Source: Chthoniobacterales bacterium (GTDB lineage Bacteria; Verrucomicrobiota; Verrucomicrobiia; Chthoniobacterales; UBA10450). Taken from it: a stretch of DNA of 36,503 nucleotides. The notes beneath the pieces are model-generated. The model was not told the DNA's origin. It saw only the letters and a program-made list of their open reading frames with translations, and did no database searches. Below, one piece after another: positions 7,649 to 20,224 of this stretch. Location: NCBI GenBank assembly GCA_013821455.1, contig JACDGS010000039.1, positions 1 through 36,503 on the forward strand. Direction: 5' to 3'. Within the stretch, counting starts at the first letter, position 1. Each line of letters begins with the position of its first letter. The position numbers and the translations under genes were made by a program.

Positions 7649-9850
7649 ATGGCTTTCGAGGATAACCAACTTCTTTTCGGCTCCGATCCGACGGCGCGAA
7701 TCGTTGCGATCGAGCTCGGCGACACCGGAACCGTGAAAGTTTATCGGCGCGAAAAAGATGGCTCAACCGTCTGCGACACCGAGGACTTTCATCCTTTCGT
7801 CTGGGCAGACAGCGACGTGGCCGATCTTGGCCTAACGAACGCAGAAAAGCTGGCGGGCGATCTGAAATACGGTTGGCTCGTGACGACGAACAGCTGGAAG
7901 GAACTGATCGCGCTGCGCAACGGTTTAAAGAACGCGGGCCGCGGTTATTTCGCGCTGAGCGATCCGGTGCAGCATTATCTTACGCACACCGGGCGCACGC
8001 TTTTCAAGCAGTTGCCGTTTGCGGAGCTGAAGCGAATGCAGCTGGAAGTGCTATCGTTCGCCGGCGGCGATCTCGAGGCGACGGCGGACGATCACATCAC
8101 GAGCATTGCCCTCGCGGATAACAGCGGTTGGGAGGAGTTGATCGTGATCGATCCGAACGCGATCGAGGAATCAGAGCGCGCCGCGATTAAGCGCCTAACG
8201 AGTCTAATCAAAGAGCGCGATCCGGATGTGATCGAAGGCCATAATCTTTTCAAATTCGACCTGCCCCTTCTCGTCGCGCGCGCGCGGAAGGCGAAAACGA
8301 AACTCGATTGGGGACGCAGCGGTGGCTTCCTCCGTTCGCGTCCTTCGCGTCTGCAAATAGCGGAGAAGACGATCGATTATCCGAAGTTTACCGTCGAGGG
8401 TCGGCACTTTGTGGACACGTTTCTGCTCGCGCAGTTCTACGACGTGGGCATGCGCACCTTGTCTGGTTTCGAGCGCACAGATGTCGCGCAGCATTTTGGC
8501 CTAACGAGTATAACTGAAGTGTCACAGTTATCCGGCAAGGAATTGCAAGGTGCCTGGACTAACGACATTTCGCGCTACCGCGAGCGAGCTCTTTGCGCGG
8601 TGAAGGAAACGCGCGCGGTGGCCGATCTCCTAAGTCCAAGCTACTTCATCCAGACACAGATATTTCCTTATAACTACCAGGACGTGATCGTGAGGGGAAA
8701 TGCCACCCGGATCAACGCGCTCTTCCTGCGCGAATACTTCCGCAAACGCCACAGCATTCCCGAAATGCCAATGGCGCGCGGCTTTCAAGGCGGTTACACC
8801 GACATTTTCTTTACCGGCGTCGCGCGCGACGTTTGGCATTGCGACGTCGCTTCGCTTTATCCCTCGATCATGTTGCAGTTCGATTGCTTCCCGGTGACGG
8901 ACCAGTTGCAGATGTTTCGCAGCCTCCTGACCGACCTGCGCACCTTCCGCTTGCAGGCGAAGTCCGACATGCGCGAGGCGAAGGACGAGCCGGCGCGACG
9001 CTACTTCCACGCCCTGCAAAATACCTTCAAGATTCTCATTAACAGCTTCTACGGCTACCTCGGTTTCGCCCAGGGGCATTTCGCCGACTTCGAAGCCGCC
9101 GCGCGAGTGACCCAGATAGGACGTGACCTACTCAAGAAGATGATCGACTGGCTTAAAGCCCAGGGCGCGCAAGTCATCGAAGTCGATACCGACGGCATCT
9201 ATTTCGTCCCGCCTAACGAGTATAAGATCGGCGACTTGCGCCATGGGCTGGCGCAAGAGTTACCGCCCGGCATCGAAGTAGAATTCGACGAGCACTTCGA
9301 AGCCATGTTCAGCTATAAGGCGAAGAACTACGCGCTCCTCGACCAGAAGGGCGAAGTCACCTTGAAAGGCGGCGCCTTAAAGTCGCGCGGACTGGAGAAG
9401 TTCCAGCGCGTTTTTCTGGAGGAAATGATCAAGCTCCTCATGCAGGAAAAGCCGGAGGAGATCGCGAAGTTGCGCGAAGAGTTCGAGCAGAAAATCCGCG
9501 GTCGCGGCTGGCCGATCGAGATGCTGATGAAGACCGACACGTTGCAGGATTCGCTCGAGAAGTATCGCCAAAAAATCGCGGGTGGCGGCCGCAACCGCGC
9601 CGCCGCCTACGAGCTCGCCCTAACGAGCGGCCGCAGCTATAAACCGGGCGACCAAATTAGTTACTACGTCAAAGCCACTCCGAAAAAGGTCGCCGCCTAC
9701 GAAGCCGCCAAACTGGTGACCGACTTCGACCCGCAAAACCGCGATGAAAACGTCGACTATTACGCCGCCAAGCTCGGGGAGCTGATGAAGAAGTTCGGTC
9801 ACGTGCAGTCTTCGCCGACGGAGCAGAAGCAAGGCAGTCTGTTACTTTGA
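7649..9850 (+). CDS. Family B DNA polymerase with degenerate proofreading site
   Basis: DNA-directed DNA polymerase of family B (the E. coli Pol II / archaeal PolB superfamily), 733 residues. Polymerase motifs are intact: motif A DVASLYPSIM with Asp399, motif B KILINSFYGYLG with Lys461, and motif C VDTDGIYF with Asp513 and Asp515. In the exonuclease domain only Exo II is clear (GHNLFKFD, Asn199 and Asp204). At the expected Exo I position (about 129-136) the sequence reads RMQLEVLS rather than the usual D-x-E, and at Exo III (about 313-320) RALCAVKE lacks the usual Tyr-x3-Asp. I infer weak or absent 3'-5' proofreading. The short N-terminus and the WEELIVID region fit a bacterial branch of the family. 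The start at 7649 follows a hairpin repeat; five copies of the dispersed motif lie inside. Confidence 0.93.
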   Translation: MAFEDNQLLFGSDPTARIVAIELGDTGTVKVYRREKDGSTVCDTEDFHPFVWADSDVADLGLTNAEKLAGDLKYGWLVTTNSWKELIALRNGLKNAGRGYFALSDPVQHYLTHTGRTLFKQLPFAELKRMQLEVLSFAGGDLEATADDHITSIALADNSGWEELIVIDPNAIEESERAAIKRLTSLIKERDPDVIEGHNLFKFDLPLLVARARKAKTKLDWGRSGGFLRSRPSRLQIAEKTIDYPKFTVEGRHFVDTFLLAQFYDVGMRTLSGFERTDVAQHFGLTSITEVSQLSGKELQGAWTNDISRYRERALCAVKETRAVADLLSPSYFIQTQIFPYNYQDVIVRGNATRINALFLREYFRKRHSIPEMPMARGFQGGYTDIFFTGVARDVWHCDVASLYPSIMLQFDCFPVTDQLQMFRSLLTDLRTFRLQAKSDMREAKDEPARRYFHALQNTFKILINSFYGYLGFAQGHFADFEAAARVTQIGRDLLKKMIDWLKAQGAQVIEVDTDGIYFVPPNEYKIGDLRHGLAQELPPGIEVEFDEHFEAMFSYKAKNYALLDQKGEVTLKGGALKSRGLEKFQRVFLEEMIKLLMQEKPEEIAKLREEFEQKIRGRGWPIEMLMKTDTLQDSLEKYRQKIAGGGRNRAAAYELALTSGRSYKPGDQISYYVKATPKKVAAYEAAKLVTDFDPQNRDENVDYYAAKLGELMKKFGHVQSSPTEQKQGSLLL

Positions 9851-12641: not shown

Positions 12642-12650
12642 GCCTAACGA

Positions 12651-13394
12651 ATGATATCCTCGCCTTTACGTCTCGCGATGTGGTCCGGCCCGCGCAATAT
12701 CTCGACCGCAATGATGCGGGCCTGGGGAAATCGGGCTGATACGGCGGTGATCGACGAACCGTTTTACGCCTTTTATCTCCAAGCCACCGGCAAGCAGCAT
12801 CCCGGCGCCGCCGAAGTGATCGCGCGAGGCGAGACGAACTGGCGAAAAGTAGCCACTGGCCTAACGAATGAGTCTCCCGCCGGCGCGCGCGTTTTCTATC
12901 AGAAACAGATGACGCACCATCTACTTCCCGAGATGGATCGCGGGTGGATTCTTAGCCTAACGAATTGCTTTCTCATCCGCGATCCGGCCGAAGTGATCGC
13001 TTCCTACCTTCGAAAAACCGACGATCCCGCGCTGGAAGATTTGGGCTTCGTGCAGCAGGTCGAATTGTTCGACTGGGTGCGTGCGAATTCCGATCGCGTC
13101 CCGCCGGTGATCGACGCGCGTGACGTGCTCGAAAATCCTGAAGGCATTCTCAGGATGCTCTGCGCTGCGGTGGGCGTGGAGTTTGCTCGGGCGATGCTTT
13201 CGTGGCCGCCCGGCTTGAGGGAGACAGATGGGACCTGGGCCAAACATTGGTACGGCGAAGTGGCCCGCTCGACTTCTTTTCAGCCTAACGAACGCAAGAC
13301 CGCGCTCGTGCCGTCACGGCTGCGAGCAGTGCACGAGCGATGCCGGGAATGCTACGACGCGCTTTTTCCGCACCGCTTAACTCTGTCATCGTGA
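12651..13394 (+). CDS. Sulfotransferase-like P-loop protein
   Basis: A 247-residue cytoplasmic protein of the sulfotransferase-like superfamily. Seen: the 5' phosphosulfate-binding-type loop MWSGPRNISTAMMRAWG (about 10-26), the 3'-phosphate-binding-type segment FLIRDPAEVIASYLRK (about 104-119), and LENPEGILRMLCAAVGV. It is followed 110 bases later by a class IV aminotransferase-like gene. In plants and some other eukaryotes these two domains are, to my recollection, fused in branched-chain-aminotransferase-like proteins, which supports a joint pathway. The true substrate is unknown. The start ATG directly follows a motif copy (12642-12650) and lacks a Shine-Dalgarno sequence. Three more copies lie inside. 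Confidence 0.8.
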   Translation: MISSPLRLAMWSGPRNISTAMMRAWGNRADTAVIDEPFYAFYLQATGKQHPGAAEVIARGETNWRKVATGLTNESPAGARVFYQKQMTHHLLPEMDRGWILSLTNCFLIRDPAEVIASYLRKTDDPALEDLGFVQQVELFDWVRANSDRVPPVIDARDVLENPEGILRMLCAAVGVEFARAMLSWPPGLRETDGTWAKHWYGEVARSTSFQPNERKTALVPSRLRAVHERCRECYDALFPHRLTLSS

Positions 13395-13504: not shown

Positions 13505-14419
13505 ATGCTTCAGCAATTCAACGAAAAAAACCGCGACTTGATCGTCAACATCAACGGCCGGCTCGTCCACCGGGACGAGGCCGGAATAAGCCCGTTCGAC
13601 TCCGCAGTGCAGGGCGGCGACGCCGTTTGGGAGGGCCTGAGGCTTTATCGCGGTCGCATCTTCAAATTGGAGGAACACCTCGAGCGGCTGCGCCGTTCCG
13701 CGACGGCGCTTTCTTTCGCGGAGATCCCGCCTAACGAAAAGATAATCGAGGAAATCAGGCGCACCCTCGCTGCGAACGAGATGGAAGACGGCGTCCACCT
13801 CCGGCTCACTCTCACGCGCGGGGTAAAAATTACTTCCGGAATGGACCCGCGCCTCAATCAAAGCGGTCCAACTTTGATCATCCTCGCGGAACACAAGGTG
13901 CCGGTTTATGCGACGACCGGTCTCTCGTTAGTCACGAGTAATATGCGCCGTCCGCCGCCGGAAATTCTCGACCCGCAAATCCACCACGCCAATCTGCTCA
14001 ACTCCATCCTGGCGAAAATCGAGGCCAACGCGGCCGGCGCCGACGACGCGCTCATGCTCGACACGCGCGGCTTCGTCGCCGAGACCAACGCGACCCATCT
14101 ATTTCTCGTTAGGCAGAACGAAGTCGCGACTAGTCGCGTGCTTGCCTGTCCCGCGGGTATTACGCGCGCGACGATCCTGGAGATTTGCGCAACGCAAAAG
14201 ATTCCGTGCCGCGAAGCCGATCTCTCGCTCGAAGAATTTTACGGTGCCGATGAGGTTTTCTGTTCCGGCACCATGGGCGAGCTGGCCGCAATTACGCAAA
14301 TCGACGGGCGCGCCATCAGCCACGGTGAAATCGGCTCGATGACGCGGCGCTTGAGCCAACTCTATGCCGAGCGCACGGCGAACGAAGGCACCCCTGTGGT
14401 CGAGGTTGCAGAGCGCTGA
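13505..14419 (+). CDS. Class IV aminotransferase-like protein lacking the PLP lysine
   Basis: A 304-residue protein of the fold-type IV PLP family (branched-chain and D-amino acid aminotransferases, aminodeoxychorismate lyase). Seen: SPFDSAVQGGDAVWEGLRLY at the N-terminus, GVHLRLTLTRG, then the usual Schiff-base region reading QIHHANLLNSILAKIEA (158-174), and ADDALMLDTRGFVAETNATH. In family members a lysine lies three or four residues before the Asn of that region. Here those positions are Ile159 and His160, and there is no lysine between 132 and 170. The rest of the fold looks intact, so I infer a changed or non-PLP activity. It is encoded after the sulfotransferase-like gene, probably as its partner. 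The name branched-chain aminotransferase should not be transferred without care. Confidence 0.88.
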   Translation: MLQQFNEKNRDLIVNINGRLVHRDEAGISPFDSAVQGGDAVWEGLRLYRGRIFKLEEHLERLRRSATALSFAEIPPNEKIIEEIRRTLAANEMEDGVHLRLTLTRGVKITSGMDPRLNQSGPTLIILAEHKVPVYATTGLSLVTSNMRRPPPEILDPQIHHANLLNSILAKIEANAAGADDALMLDTRGFVAETNATHLFLVRQNEVATSRVLACPAGITRATILEICATQKIPCREADLSLEEFYGADEVFCSGTMGELAAITQIDGRAISHGEIGSMTRRLSQLYAERTANEGTPVVEVAER

Positions 14420-14569
14420 CGAAACCCGAAGTCCAAAGTTGCGTGCAGTTCGTTAGGTGTGTGGGGACATCATCATTCCTCGACCACTTCGTTGACGCTT
14501 TCCGCCCCGGAAGATACTCTCTCTCCTGCGAATCCCGCGGTGCTGACCCGCCGCTGCCTTCCCTCATTC

Positions 14570-16273
14570 ATGCCTCCGCCTAACGAAGAATTTGTGCTCG
14601 ATCTCCTGCGCGACGTGGGCCTCGTCACGCGCAAGCAGGTCGAGGAAGCGCGCACTCGCCTCAACGGGTCGAACAGTGTCGTCGCCGCGCTCGTGCGCGA
14701 CCGCATCATTTCGGAGGACGACGTTTCGCGCAGCCTCGCGGCGCAGGCGCACATGCATTGGATCGACCTCAGTGAGATGGTCGTGACCCAGGAAATCATC
14801 GACGAAATAAAACCGGCGGACGCGCGCCGTTTTCGCATGATCCCGATCGCGCGCAACGAGTCCGGCCTGGTCGTCGCGACCGGCGATCCGCTCGACTTCG
14901 ACAGTATCGACACCCTCACTTTTATCCTGAAACGGGAAGTCGAACTGGTCTGCACCACCCCGGAAAAAATCAGCGAGGCGCTGGTAAAATATTACGGCAC
15001 CGCGGACGAGGCCGCCGAAAATCTCCTGCGCCGCATCGGCGATCCAACGCTCGATTTCGATCTGGAAGAAGGCGTGGAGCTGGGCGAAGGCGACACGGCC
15101 GACGCGCCCATTGTGCGCATGGTCTCGATGCTTTTGCTCGAAGCGCACAAGCTCGGCGCGAGCGACATCCATCTCGAGCCGCTCGAGAAAAGTTTCCGCG
15201 TCCGCTTCCGCATCGACGGCGTCCTGCAGGAGATGCAATCGCCGCCGAAGAAGCTGCAATCCGCGATCGTGAGCCGGCTCAAAATTATGACCGGCTCCAT
15301 GAGCATCGCGGAGAAGCGGCTGCCGCAGGACGGCCGCATTCAGGTGAAGATGGGGAAAAAATCGGTGGACCTCCGCGTTTCCACTTTGCCGACGAATCAC
15401 GGCGAAAGCATGGTCATGCGTTTGCTCGACAAAACGAGTTTGCTTCTCGGTTTGCCGGAGCTCGGTTTCCTCAGCGACGACCAGGAAAGTTTCGAGCGTC
15501 TGTTGCGCGCGCCTGACGGCATTTTGCTCGTCACCGGCCCGACCGGTTCGGGTAAGACGAGCACGCTTTACGCGTGTCTGAATTACATCAACAAACCCGA
15601 CCGCAAGATCATCACCGTTGAGGAGCCCGTGGAGTATCAGATGAACGGGATCAACCAGGTGCAGGTGAACAGCGAGATCGGCATGACTTTTCCCGCGGCC
15701 TTGCGCTCCATCTTGCGGCAGGCGCCGAACATCATCATGATCGGTGAGATTCGCGATCTCGAGACGGCGTCGATCGCGACCAACGCCAGCCTCACGGGGC
15801 ACCTTGTCTTTAGCACGCTGCACACCAACGACGCGCCCTCTGCGGTCGCGCGGCTGATCGACATCGGCGTGCAGCCGTTTCTCGTCTCCACTTCTATTCG
15901 CGCGATCATGGCGCAACGACTCGTTAGGCGACTTTGCTCCAAATGCCGCGAGCCGGGTCATCTGACGGATTCGGAGCTGCGCGCCTTGCGCATCGAAGGT
16001 TCCCAATTGAGCGAAGCGAACGTGATGCGCCCGGTCGGCTGCGAGCGTTGCCGGCAGACCGGTTACAAAGGACGGATGGGAATTTTCGAGCTCTTCGAGA
16101 TCGACGATGAAGTGCGTCACATGGTGAACGATCGCGCGTCCACGCTGGAGCTGCGGCAGCGCGCGCGCGAGCTCGGCATGCGCACGTTGCGCGAGGATGG
16201 CGTGCGCAAAGTGCTCGCCGGCATGACGAGCGCGGAGGAAGTGATCTCGATCACCATCGGGGATTTGAATTGA
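14570..16273 (+). CDS. Type IV pilus / type II secretion assembly ATPase (first copy)
   Basis: A 567-residue hexameric ATPase of the GspE/PilB family that powers pilin or pseudopilin assembly at the inner membrane. Seen: an N-terminal MshEN-like domain (EEFVLDLLRDVGLV onward), ASDIHLEP, Walker A GPTGSGKT (323-330), the Asp box near EEPVEYQ, Walker B-type MIGEIRDLETASIA, the His box GHLVFSTLHTND, and a zinc-binding C-terminal part with CSKC and CERC. I choose the ATG at 14570; its codons 4 to 6 carry the dispersed motif, and 37 upstream in-frame codons look non-coding. A paralogue follows at 16531. The 518-codon antisense frame here is a shadow. Confidence 0.94.
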   Translation: MPPPNEEFVLDLLRDVGLVTRKQVEEARTRLNGSNSVVAALVRDRIISEDDVSRSLAAQAHMHWIDLSEMVVTQEIIDEIKPADARRFRMIPIARNESGLVVATGDPLDFDSIDTLTFILKREVELVCTTPEKISEALVKYYGTADEAAENLLRRIGDPTLDFDLEEGVELGEGDTADAPIVRMVSMLLLEAHKLGASDIHLEPLEKSFRVRFRIDGVLQEMQSPPKKLQSAIVSRLKIMTGSMSIAEKRLPQDGRIQVKMGKKSVDLRVSTLPTNHGESMVMRLLDKTSLLLGLPELGFLSDDQESFERLLRAPDGILLVTGPTGSGKTSTLYACLNYINKPDRKIITVEEPVEYQMNGINQVQVNSEIGMTFPAALRSILRQAPNIIMIGEIRDLETASIATNASLTGHLVFSTLHTNDAPSAVARLIDIGVQPFLVSTSIRAIMAQRLVRRLCSKCREPGHLTDSELRALRIEGSQLSEANVMRPVGCERCRQTGYKGRMGIFELFEIDDEVRHMVNDRASTLELRQRARELGMRTLREDGVRKVLAGMTSAEEVISITIGDLN

Positions 16274-16293
16274 TCACGGTCGCGACCAGGCAA

Positions 16294-16478
16294 ATCCGGG
16301 GAGGACGGGGTGTCACCCCGTCGTTCGGTGCAGTCTGCGCCGAACCGTCCGGAGAGAGGAGTTGGAGCGACCAAGAGCTGTCGTCGTCACTTTGGGTTCC
16401 GAGCACGTGGCTTGCGCGCGAGGCCTTGGGCGAGGCTCGCCCAAGTGCGACGGGCTACCAGCCCGTCCTCCCCGGATT
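16294..16478. repeat. REPIN-like element (family A), 185 bp
   Basis: Starts ATCCGGGGAGGACGGGG and ends with the inverse CCCGTCCTCCCCGGAT. Each end holds its own small hairpin (GGGGTGTCACCCC at the left, GGGCTACCAGCCC at the right). The left end continues into GTTCGGTGCAGTCTGCGCCGAAC. The inner right part has a further hairpin around CTTGGGCGAG/CTCGCCCAAG. The middle differs from the other copies. It fills the gap between the two ATPase genes. Confidence 0.9.
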
Positions 16479-16530
16479 TTCCCGCATCTCAGCCCCTCTG
16501 CACTTGTGGCCTAACGATTGTGCCTAACGA

Positions 16531-18216
16531 ATGAATAACGAGCGCATCGCCGATCTTTTCATCGAGCAGGGCCTGATGGATCGCGCCCAGGCGGACGATG
16601 TGCTCCTCGAAACGACGCAGAACGGCAAGGCGATGGATCGCGCCATGGTCGATCACGGTATCGTCGATGAGCGCGAGTTTTACCAGACCATTGCCGACGC
16701 ACTCAGTACCGAGGTGGTCGATCTCGACGCGATCGAGATTTCTCCCGCGATTCTGAAGCTCATTCCGGCCGGCCTCGCGCGTTTGCATCGGGCGCTCCCA
16801 ATCGGCGTGCAGGATGGCGCGGTGCGGGTCGCGCTCGTCGATCCGCTCGACACCCAGACGATCGAAGACCTGCGTTTCGCTCTCGGCCACGACATTCAAG
16901 TGGTCCTCGCGCCGCTGCTGCAAATCGAGGAGCGGCTGCGCAAACACTACGGCGAGGACACCTCGAGCATGGAGGACATCCTCAAGCAGCTCGGCGAGGC
17001 AGGTGAGCTCATGACGCTCGCGGGCGATCGCGCGACCGGCCCCGGCGTAGAAGCGGCGGACGCGACGCCGATCATTCGCTTCGTCGATCTGATTTTGTAC
17101 CAAGCCATTCAGGACCGTGCGAGCGACATCCATTTCGAGCCGTTCGAGAACGAGTTCAAAGTTCGTTATCGAGTGGATGGCGCGCTTTACGAAATGGCGC
17201 CGCCGCCGCGCCATCTCGCGCTGCCCGTGATCTCGCGCGTGAAGGTAATGGCAAACATGAATATCGCCGAACGCCGTCTCCCGCAGGATGGGCGTATTCA
17301 GAAAAACATCGCCGGCCGCGCGGTCGATCTGCGCGTCTCGACTTTGCCGACGCAGTTTGGCGAGAGTGTCGTCCTGCGCGTGCTTGATCGCTCGACCGTG
17401 AACCTCGATCTCGAGGCGCTCGGGATGCCCGATTACATTTACAAATACATCCTCGAGGTGATCAATCGGCCTAACGGAATCTTCATCGTCACCGGGCCGA
17501 CCGGCTCGGGCAAAACGACGACGCTTTATTCCTGTCTGCGCAAGATCAACACGATCGACTCAAAGCTTCTGACCGCGGAAGAGCCGGTCGAGTACGACCT
17601 CGAAGGCGTGATGCAGGTGCCGGTGAACGACAACATCGGGCTCAGCTTCGCGCGTGTGCTCCGCGCGTTTTTGCGCCAGGATCCGGACCGCATCATGGTG
17701 GGTGAAACGCGCGATCTCGAGACCGCGCAAATCGCGATCCAGGCCTCGCTCACGGGGCATCTCGTTTTCACCACCTTGCACACGAACGACGCGCCGGGGG
17801 CGATCGCGCGTCTCATCGACATGGGCGTCGAGCCATTCCTTATTTCCTCGACGCTCGACGCCGTTCTCGGGCAGCGGCTTCTACGCAGTATTTGCAAGGA
17901 ATGTAAAACATCTTACGAGCCTAACGATTCCCTGTTGCGGCAGCTTAATCTTTCGCCGCGCGAGATTGGCGACCGGAAATTTTATTTCGGTGCCGGCTGT
18001 GAGCGCTGTAATCGCACGGGCTACAAGGGCCGCATCGGCATTTACGAACTGATGGAAATTACCGATCCAGTTCGCGCCTTCATCAACCAGCGTTCCCCGT
18101 CGGTTGTTCTAAAACAGAAGGCGATCGAGCTCGGCATGACCACACTGCGTCAGGATGGGGTTCGGAGTATTTTTGCAGGCGATACGACAATTGAGGAAGT
18201 GCTCAAATACACTTGA
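16531..18216 (+). CDS. Type IV pilus / type II secretion assembly ATPase (second copy)
   Basis: A 561-residue GspE/PilB-family ATPase, paralogous to the one at 14570. Seen: an MshEN-like N-terminus (IADLFIEQGLMDRAQADDVL), ASDIHFEPFENEFKVRYR, Walker A GPTGSGKT (322-329), EEPVEYDLEGVMQ, MVGETRDLETAQIA, GHLVFTTLHTND, and zinc-site cysteines CKEC and CERC. It lacks PilT-type features, so it is an assembly rather than retraction motor. Two motif copies (16509 and 16522) stand directly before the ATG, the second touching it, and there is no Shine-Dalgarno sequence. GspF/PilC follows 104 bases later. The two copies may serve different pili or work as a mixed pair. Confidence 0.94.
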   Translation: MNNERIADLFIEQGLMDRAQADDVLLETTQNGKAMDRAMVDHGIVDEREFYQTIADALSTEVVDLDAIEISPAILKLIPAGLARLHRALPIGVQDGAVRVALVDPLDTQTIEDLRFALGHDIQVVLAPLLQIEERLRKHYGEDTSSMEDILKQLGEAGELMTLAGDRATGPGVEAADATPIIRFVDLILYQAIQDRASDIHFEPFENEFKVRYRVDGALYEMAPPPRHLALPVISRVKVMANMNIAERRLPQDGRIQKNIAGRAVDLRVSTLPTQFGESVVLRVLDRSTVNLDLEALGMPDYIYKYILEVINRPNGIFIVTGPTGSGKTTTLYSCLRKINTIDSKLLTAEEPVEYDLEGVMQVPVNDNIGLSFARVLRAFLRQDPDRIMVGETRDLETAQIAIQASLTGHLVFTTLHTNDAPGAIARLIDMGVEPFLISSTLDAVLGQRLLRSICKECKTSYEPNDSLLRQLNLSPREIGDRKFYFGAGCERCNRTGYKGRIGIYELMEITDPVRAFINQRSPSVVLKQKAIELGMTTLRQDGVRSIFAGDTTIEEVLKYT

Positions 18217-18242
18217 ACCCGAGGCTTTATCGCATCGTGCGG

Positions 18243-18258
18243 GTGCATGAAAATGCAC
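18243..18258. other. Small GNRA-type hairpin between ATPase and GspF/PilC genes
   Basis: GTGCAT, loop GAAA, ATGCAC. There is no T run, so it is not a convincing terminator. It could be an mRNA stability or processing element, or chance. Confidence 0.35.
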
Positions 18259-18320
18259 AAAGGCTCGACAGCTTTCCGCGCGCGTCCTAATCTTCTTGGA
18301 ACCGCTAAGAAAACCAATTT

Positions 18321-19607
18321 ATGCCGAAATTTAACTACATAGCGCTCGACGCTCGTGGACAGGAATCAACCGGTTTGGTCGAGGCCGGCTCGAACAACGA
18401 AGCCATCGGGCAGCTTCGCCAAGCGGGATATTTTCCGACGAGCGTTTACGAAGAGGGGCGCGGAGGCGTGGTCGAGAAAAAAACGCTCAAGGCTGCGAAG
18501 GGCTCGGCCAAAACCGCGCCCAAAGCGAAAGGAAAAGGAATCGTCCTCTACCAAAAGAAGACGGTAAAGGCGAAGACGCTCATGATTTTCACGCGCCAGC
18601 TCGCGACTTTGATCGACGCCGGCTTGCCGCTGCTTCGCGGTCTCAATGTGCTCTCCAAACAGGAACGCGACCCTGTTCTTAAGACCACGATCGATCAACT
18701 CGCCGATTCCGTGCAAGGCGGCAGCACGTTCTCGGAAGGGCTCGGGCAGCATCCGCGTATATTCAACAAACTTTACGTCAACATGGTGAAAGCCGGTGAG
18801 CTCGGCGGTGTGCTCGAGCTCGTTCTCGGACGGCTCGCGGAGTTCCAGGAAAAAGCGCAGAAGGTCAAAAACAAGGTCAAGTCCGCGATGATCTATCCGA
18901 TCATCGTGCTCTCGCTCGCGATGATCATCATGGCGTTCCTCATGGTTTTCATCGTGCCGAAATTTCAATCCATCTTTCACGACATGCTGGGCGACAAACC
19001 GCTGCCCGCGATCACGCAGTTCGTCATCGATATCAGCAACTTCATGCAGCACGATTGGCTCATCCTGATCGGTGGCCTGATTGCGTTATTCGTCGGCTTC
19101 AAATTCTTCGCGCGCTCGACTTCAGGTCGCGCGATGCTCGATCGCATCGCGTTGCGCGCGCCCCTTTTCGGCGACCTCACGCGCAAGAGCTCGATCTCCC
19201 GTTTCGCGCGCACGCTCGGAACGCTGGTCACCAGCGGCGTGCCGATCTTGCAGGCGCTTAATATTACGCGTGAGACCGCGGATAATACTGTGATTGCGAA
19301 AGCGATCACGCAGGTGCACGACTCGGTGAAAGAAGGCGAGTCGATCGTCCAGCCGCTGGAAGCGAGCAAAGCTTTCCCGCCGATGGTCATCAGCATGATC
19401 GACGTCGGCGAAGAGACCGGTCAGTTGCCCGAAATGCTGCTCAAGATCGCCGAGGTTTACGACGATGAAGTGGACAACTCCGTCGCCGGCCTGACCTCGA
19501 TGCTCGAACCGATCATGATCGTTTTGCTTGCCGTGATTGTGGGCACGATCGTCATCGCCTTGTTCATGCCCTTGGTCAGCATCATCAGCGGCCTGCAGGC
19601 TTCATAG
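18321..19607 (+). CDS. Inner-membrane platform protein GspF/PilC
   Basis: A 428-residue polytopic protein that anchors the assembly ATPase and pilin in type IV pilus and type II secretion machines. Seen: the N-terminal MPKFNYIALDARGQE, a Lys/Ala-rich linker (about 50-90), then two GspF domains (LMIFTRQLATLIDAGLPLLRGL about 90-215 and ISRFARTLGTLVTSGVPILQAL about 290-415) with membrane segments near 190-213, 240-258 and 393-420. The order ATPase, ATPase, platform, pilin suggests one operon. It is the longest gene in the window without any exact copy of the dispersed motif; the gap runs from 17927 to 19628. No Shine-Dalgarno sequence is visible. Confidence 0.95.
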   Translation: MPKFNYIALDARGQESTGLVEAGSNNEAIGQLRQAGYFPTSVYEEGRGGVVEKKTLKAAKGSAKTAPKAKGKGIVLYQKKTVKAKTLMIFTRQLATLIDAGLPLLRGLNVLSKQERDPVLKTTIDQLADSVQGGSTFSEGLGQHPRIFNKLYVNMVKAGELGGVLELVLGRLAEFQEKAQKVKNKVKSAMIYPIIVLSLAMIIMAFLMVFIVPKFQSIFHDMLGDKPLPAITQFVIDISNFMQHDWLILIGGLIALFVGFKFFARSTSGRAMLDRIALRAPLFGDLTRKSSISRFARTLGTLVTSGVPILQALNITRETADNTVIAKAITQVHDSVKEGESIVQPLEASKAFPPMVISMIDVGEETGQLPEMLLKIAEVYDDEVDNSVAGLTSMLEPIMIVLLAVIVGTIVIALFMPLVSIISGLQAS

Positions 19608-19609
19608 GA

Positions 19610-20224
19610 ATGTCGGATCCCGCGGGATCGTTAGGCAAGACGGCGCTACGAACGCGAAGCGACGCCTTCACAGTGGTGGAACTGCTGGTCGTGATGGCGA
19701 TCATCCTAGTCTTGGCAGGCTTGGTTCTCGGGACGAGCGGTTATGTCCATAGCAAAGCCGCCACCTCTCGCGCGCAAGCCGAAATTCAGGCGATGTCAGC
19801 GGGACTCGAAAATTACAAGGCGGATAATGCGATCTATCCGAGCAACGCCGATACCGATGCTTTAGACGCTAGAGCAATGGCATCCTCCACCTACGATCCG
19901 ACCACGACCAGTTATACAAAAACTGGTCAATACTTATATGTAGCCCTCACTGGCGACAGCTCTGGTAATGGGAGTCCCGCCACCGGGAAGAGCTATATCA
20001 CTTTTAAGACGAACCAACTTAGTTCTACCACCCCCTACACCGTGATTGATCCGTTTGGCTACAGTTATGGATATTCGACAGCGTACCCAGCGGATCTAAA
20101 CAAGACACCTCCGGTTGATCCTCCGACGCATGGCTACAATCCGACGTTCGATCTCTGGAGCACTGCCGGCACCCTCACTTCGGCTGCCTCCAATATTAAA
20201 GTGTCGTGGGTCAAGAACTGGTAG
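19610..20224 (+). CDS. GspG-like pseudopilin / type IV pilin
   Basis: A 204-residue prepilin with a 19-residue polar leader, then the type III signal FTVVELLVVMAIILVLAGLV. Glu5 of the mature chain is present. The residue before the expected cleavage site is Ala (SDA before FTVVE) rather than the usual Gly, so processing needs a tolerant prepilin peptidase or the site differs. The long helix continues through SRAQAEIQAMSAGLENYKAD, and the globular part ends in a GspG-like PDLWS-type region (NPTFDLWSTAGT). It begins two bases after the GspF/PilC stop, so it is in the same operon. One motif copy lies in its leader (Ser-Leu-Gly). It could be a major pseudopilin or a minor pilin. Confidence 0.9.
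   Translation: MSDPAGSLGKTALRTRSDAFTVVELLVVMAIILVLAGLVLGTSGYVHSKAATSRAQAEIQAMSAGLENYKADNAIYPSNADTDALDARAMASSTYDPTTTSYTKTGQYLYVALTGDSSGNGSPATGKSYITFKTNQLSSTTPYTVIDPFGYSYGYSTAYPADLNKTPPVDPPTHGYNPTFDLWSTAGTLTSAASNIKVSWVKNW

Follow-up and report, generated by a model that had tools for sequence, protein, structure and literature searches.

A class IV aminotransferase-like protein with histidine (His160) at the position of the Schiff-base lysine is encoded in the window, which is the whole stretch of 36,503 nucleotides analyzed here. The invariant His in its relatives and the near-constant presence of a sulfotransferase partner suggest that this protein pairs with a Sulfotransfer_5 protein in a two-protein system for PAPS-dependent sulfonation, of which it is the half without Schiff-base chemistry, a reading to which a probability of roughly 0.5 is assigned. 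Loss of the residue that defines PLP enzymes is usually taken as the mark of a dead gene, whereas the lineage that carries it here is old, under strong constraint and associated with a sulfotransferase. The two genes are as follows.

13505-14419, + strand: Lys-less class IV aminotransferase-like protein (His type), 304 aa (ORF, PF01063, AlphaFold2 model)
12651-13394, + strand: Sulfotransfer_5 (PF19798) PAPS-type sulfotransferase, conserved partner (PF19798, E 3e-55), directly upstream of 13505-14419

Identification of the Lys-less aminotransferase-like protein

The open reading frame starts with an ATG at 13505, and its stop codon ends at 14419. A class IV profile check, proposed in the initial annotation, returned Aminotran_4 (PF01063) with an E value of 2.8e-44 and 152.1 bits (cutoff 28.5). 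Regarding more specific functions, the protein stayed under the cutoff in all 20 matches to the NCBIfam models for branched-chain aminotransferases (BCATs), D-amino acid transaminase and ADC lyase, the top match scoring 244.6 bits against a cutoff of 363. The seven lysines of the protein are located at residues 8, 54, 79, 108, 131, 171 and 232; therefore, the initial claim that residues 132 to 170 contain no lysine is exact. Residue 158 is the start of the motif QIHHANLLNSILAKIEA. The protein is thus a fold-type-IV protein without the Schiff-base lysine, in which His160 is found instead. The same genome also encodes a canonical class IV paralog (locus L002), in which the Lys is present, at another locus, so that ordinary transamination has another candidate. 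Profile searches would label Lys-less proteins as aminotransferases, an assignment that is likely wrong for a large group.

Conservation of His160

13982-13984, + strand: His160 codon (CAC), canonical Schiff-base Lys position (alignment with L002, 48 canonical sequences and N174 of 7z79)

In the alignment with canonical relatives, the catalytic Lys of the paralog L002 (NPAIKSLNYLNN; 'IKSLNYLNN') and that of 5cm0 align on His160, which leads the 'IHH' stretch; the His after it is Ser in some members of the His-type family. His160 was observed in all 113 family loci, some of which represent one genome in two collections, and in each of the 59 His-type sequences left once near-copies were removed. 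It is also kept in 8 further, more divergent members from Planctomycetota, giving a total of 121 of 121 family sequences from several phyla at 53-83% identity, with some genomes counted twice. Lys occupies this position in 48 of 48 canonical relatives and in one more (49/49, the own-genome paralog included). A scan of the genome collection with the family alignment yielded at least 589 confirmed relatives. The best 80 of these share 68-83% identity with the protein and lie on contigs labelled Verrucomicrobiota, Planctomycetota, Gemmatimonadota, Acidobacteriota, Armatimonadota and Gammaproteobacteria, although these contigs are mostly from MAGs and the phylum labels may be wrong. Within Verrucomicrobiota, a gap in score separates the His family (at least 334 bits) from the remaining matches (at most 191 bits).

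Since His160 is present in all of the 113 loci and the 8 divergent members, and Lys in all of the 48 canonical relatives and the additional one, the missing Lys is explained neither by chance nor by sequencing error. Comparison with two congeners gave dN of 0.10-0.11 and dS of 1.05-1.27, corresponding to a dN/dS of about 0.1 with dS near saturation. The initial annotation had proposed an entire subfamily instead of a dead gene, and this proposal is strongly supported by the invariance of His160 across phyla, by other invariant positions and by the dN/dS ratio. That the chemistry of the subfamily has changed may be soundly inferred from the sequences.

Active-site residues and predicted structure

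13685-13687, + strand: Arg61 codon, retained PLP-phosphate ligand position (invariant in the His, Asn and canonical clades)
14081-14083, + strand: codon of Glu193, kept as the partner of pyridine N1 by position (Glu in all 59 His-type and all 48 canonical sequences; Thr/Ser in all 36 of the Asn type)
13826-13828, + strand: codon of Lys108, a residue confined to the Lys-less clades and a candidate for substrate binding or for a relocated lysine (59/59 His; 33/36 Asn, the 3 others Arg; 0/48 canonical, which have Gly)

The His clade keeps the phosphate-cup positions R61, T220 and T256 together with the pyridine-N Glu, E193. The roles of these residues and of the substrate-loop positions are presumed to be those in E. 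coli IlvE and Bacillus D-amino acid aminotransferase. Compared with canonical enzymes, the His clade carries the replacements Y37G, F42W, Y98H, G108K, L111S and C118N (canonical residue first), and H98, K108, T110, S111, R116, N118, E129 and K131 are invariant within it. The initial statement that all other conserved parts remain is thus accurate for the phosphate cup and the pyridine-N Glu but not for the substrate-side loops, which are systematically changed; the new invariant residues would mark an altered substrate site.

An AlphaFold2 model based on 107 diverse sequences (mean pLDDT 92.8) adopts fold type IV, with a helix that begins at His160. The model resembles BCAT-type structures with a TM score of about 0.9 and Z scores of 34-37. 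Its best solved match is 7z79 (Z 37.0, 1.7 A over 295 residues, 38% identity), an 'aminotransferase-like protein' of Variovorax paradoxus that is likewise devoid of the Schiff-base lysine at the same position. Both proteins have Trp42, His98, Lys108 and Glu129, which the canonical enzymes do not have. However, 7z79 contains Asn (N174, aligned to His160) where the protein described here has His, and Ser/Thr replaces Glu193 in the clade of 7z79. Each of the 36 Asn-type sequences (35 obtained via genome scans plus 7z79) has Asn where canonical enzymes have the Lys, and all of them have Thr or Ser where the His clade has E193. The protein of the window, with His160 and Glu193, belongs to a sister clade of this set and is not a member of it. 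The Geoglobus and Archaeoglobus BCATs (5cm0/5e25, 5mqz) share the fold, 38-40% identity, the phosphate-cup residues and the pyridine Glu with the protein, but they group with the enzymes in which the catalytic Lys is retained and differ from it in the substrate-loop residues.

Phylogenetic analysis by maximum likelihood, with the motif columns left out of the alignment, placed the His, Asn and Lys groups each on one side of a branch. The His and Asn groups together are split from the Lys group with an SH-aLRT value of 100. Because the tree has no root, reading it as one loss of Lys presumes a root on the Lys side.

The sulfotransferase partner

The conserved Sulfotransfer_5 partner was absent from the initial annotation and is the main clue to function. 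Outside Gemmatimonadota, most His-type loci whose flanks are long enough show the sulfotransferase gene adjacent and in the same orientation. The gene order is sulfotransferase-aminotransferase in the His clade, whereas in the Asn clade, where the sulfotransferase gene often adjoins, it usually lies downstream. In one Verrucomicrobiota contig (L050:5077-6897), a single open frame of 607 residues spans Sulfotransfer_5 and the Lys-less aminotransferase domain; it may be a genuine fusion, or a linker of about 100 bases may be open by chance.

Sulfotransfer_5 also follows the Lys-less gene at the level of whole genomes. In Planctomycetota it is present in 31 of 31 Lys-less genomes versus 1 of 185 others, position 160 having been read directly for part of these matches, the most divergent included, and assigned by score for the rest. 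The corresponding counts are 32 of 36 versus 1 of 313 in Pseudomonadota (position 160 read directly in 30 of the 36 matches, the rest assigned by score) and 5 of 6 versus 0 of 234 in Verrucomicrobiota. Fisher p values range from about 1e-36 to 1e-39 for the Planctomycetota and Pseudomonadota sets (about 1e-39 for the latter) and ignore shared ancestry. Where the two genes are not adjacent in Planctomycetota, Sulfotransfer_5 is usually found elsewhere in the same genome, and unlinked pairs are still kept within one genome. The single extra Planctomycetota match (G724) retains the Lys, is canonical like the archaeal BCATs, and comes from a genome without Sulfotransfer_5. Furthermore, the sulfotransferase tree and the aminotransferase tree each divide broadly into His and Asn groups.

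There are several exceptions to this pairing. Although Sulfotransfer_5 adjoins the His-type gene on one Gemmatimonadota contig (L094), it is absent assembly-wide in all 8 Gemmatimonadota genomes that have no adjacent copy. It was also not found in the genome of L102 or in four Pseudomonadota Lys-less genomes, namely G652 and the closest Variovorax-like genomes sampled (G594, G619 and G706). Therefore, the partner is either not strictly required or lost to incomplete assemblies in these cases.

When gene neighbors were compared across phyla, none recurred except the sulfotransferase, and hence the neighborhood does not point to a pathway or substrate. At two Gemmatimonadota loci (L085:3548-6068 and L099:3538-5975), the His-type gene follows genes that resemble, by sequence alone, those for homoserine kinase and threonine synthase and that occupy the place of the sulfotransferase in other phyla; these neighbors are a possible substrate hint. 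Two Variovorax-like Asn-type loci without Sulfotransfer_5 (L201 and L202) adjoin an amino-acid-type ABC transporter (SBP_bac_3, BPD_transp_1, ABC_tran) and an MmgE/PrpD gene.

Regarding the sulfotransferase itself, W11-S-G-P-R-N16, R110 and S118, which resemble the PAPS-site motifs of sulfotransferases in general, are conserved in both clades, and H90 is also kept. The genome additionally encodes two APS kinase domains for PAPS supply. The solved structures nearest in sequence are the sulfotransferase domains of CurM (4gbm, E 1.5e-5) and an olefin synthase (4gox, E 7e-5). These are polyketide synthase domains that act on beta-hydroxyacyl chains; the similarity is low and does not indicate what the partner sulfotransferase acts on. 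Searches of the open literature accessible here returned no description of a Lys-less class IV family, of 7z79/9j32, of plant BCAT-like proteins or of an aminotransferase/PF19798 pair, which is not proof of novelty; the Variovorax structures may be published elsewhere. PF19798 appears solely as a sulfotransferase domain in one report (PMC11625862) and serves only as a search model in another (PMC12506393).

Proposed function of the pair

In the proposed sulfonation system, the Lys-less protein would be functional and would have given up the internal aldimine. The Sulfotransfer_5 protein would move the sulfonate from PAPS, and the rebuilt pocket of the aminotransferase-like partner would bind the same small anionic metabolite, similar to an amino or keto acid. 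The old phosphate cup may hold non-covalent PLP/PMP, or alternatively a phosphate or sulfate carried by the ligand, and His160 may take over from the lysine, either in proton transfer or in positioning the ligand. This scheme presupposes a physical complex of the two proteins, a shared substrate, a ligand in the cup and a catalytic role of His160, all of which are inferred.

A broader and more tentative proposal is a widespread, sometimes possibly fused, PAPS-dependent enzyme in which a protein of the aminotransferase fold, devoid of Schiff-base chemistry, serves as the second catalytic or substrate-binding half for an undescribed sulfated metabolite. If this is true, such a metabolite would occur in Planctomycetota, Verrucomicrobiota and Pseudomonadota. 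It would also occur in plants, provided that the plant BCAT-like proteins have a similar His-His-Asn stretch, as the initial annotation proposed, and carry a long N-terminal extension, which may correspond to the sulfotransferase domain. A route from serine via aminoacrylate to cysteate, with a PAPS:2-aminoacrylate C-sulfotransferase, would be speculation for the pair, and no support for it was found in the open literature searched. The discovery of the pair makes the question of what the Lys-less protein does directly testable with both proteins together.

The first alternative is that the protein is a PLP/PMP enzyme that binds its cofactor non-covalently and in which the His serves as the catalytic base for a dehydration, elimination or isomerization of the substrate or product of the sulfotransferase. 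ColD-type sugar dehydratases are PMP enzymes of fold type I in which His replaces the Lys. A His is likewise present in the protein described here, which possibly works like ColD, but its fold is type IV. The His at position 160 is invariant rather than variable, and the retention of the phosphate cup and of Glu193 in the His clade speaks for this alternative; Glu193 would mainly serve a bound pyridine ring. However, the Asn clade has lost both the Lys and Glu193 (36/36) and keeps the same partner; thus the function of the pair need not use the PLP electron sink, and electron-sink chemistry is not a safe assumption for a function shared by both clades. This alternative is regarded as rather unlikely.

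An improbable alternative is a non-catalytic pseudoenzyme, that is, a regulatory or structural subunit that stabilizes or allosterically tunes the sulfotransferase. Such a role would agree with the absence of the catalytic Lys, with the additional loss of Glu193 in the Asn clade and with the near-obligate pairing. It fits poorly with the active-site loops, whose residues show some of the strongest conservation in the protein, with the single fixed residue at the Lys position (His, or Asn in the sister clade), and with Gemmatimonadota, which retain the aminotransferase-like protein without the partner.

Relocation of the lysine, by which another Lys would form the Schiff base and the protein would still be a PLP aminotransferase, has a small chance of being correct. 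The foremost candidate would be Lys108, located in a loop that in this fold nears the site of the neighboring subunit; it is invariant in the His clade, present in 33 of 36 Asn-type sequences and Gly in canonical enzymes, but three Asn-type members have Arg instead. Lys131 is also invariant in the His clade, yet it is Ser in 19 of 36 Asn-type sequences. Moreover, that the depositors made an N174K mutant of the 7z79 protein (9j32) suggests that it has no other lysine in this role. As Lys171 also occurs in 46 of 48 canonical Lys-bearing enzymes and lies 11 residues (about three helical turns) past position 160 in the modeled helix 160-176, its replacement of the Schiff-base lysine is very unlikely on the model and it was rejected. 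Position 158 was rejected as well, being Gln or Arg in many members, the protein of the window included. The initial annotation had called for a structure prediction to see whether another lysine reaches the cofactor. Lys171 drops out as above, and Lys131 and the more interesting, clade-specific Lys108 stay candidates for pocket residues.

Finally, a decayed or mis-assembled gene without function, for which the missing lysine is the single argument, is ruled out by the conservation of His160 in the 121 sequences and the dN/dS ratio.

Other features of the window

The 9-mer GCCTAACGA / TCGTTAGGC occurs in 63 copies in the 36.5 kb window versus about 0.2 expected, and its core, CTAACGA, in 78 copies versus 2.6 in shuffles. 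The copies (for example, at 12643, 12860, 12956, 13284, 13730, 14449 and 14579) lie on both strands and across genes at about one per 580 bases, a distribution that resembles DNA uptake sequences or HIP1. The 9-mer is also dense in the congeners L003, L004 and L030 and in L041, and nearly absent in other phyla. Downstream of the Lys-less gene, 14459-20224 encodes two tandem T2SSE ATPases, a T2SSF protein and a pseudopilin-like protein, which form a gene set for type II secretion or a type IV pilus in this 9-mer-rich genome. In addition, a family B DNA polymerase with an exonuclease domain (733 aa) is encoded at 7649-9850.
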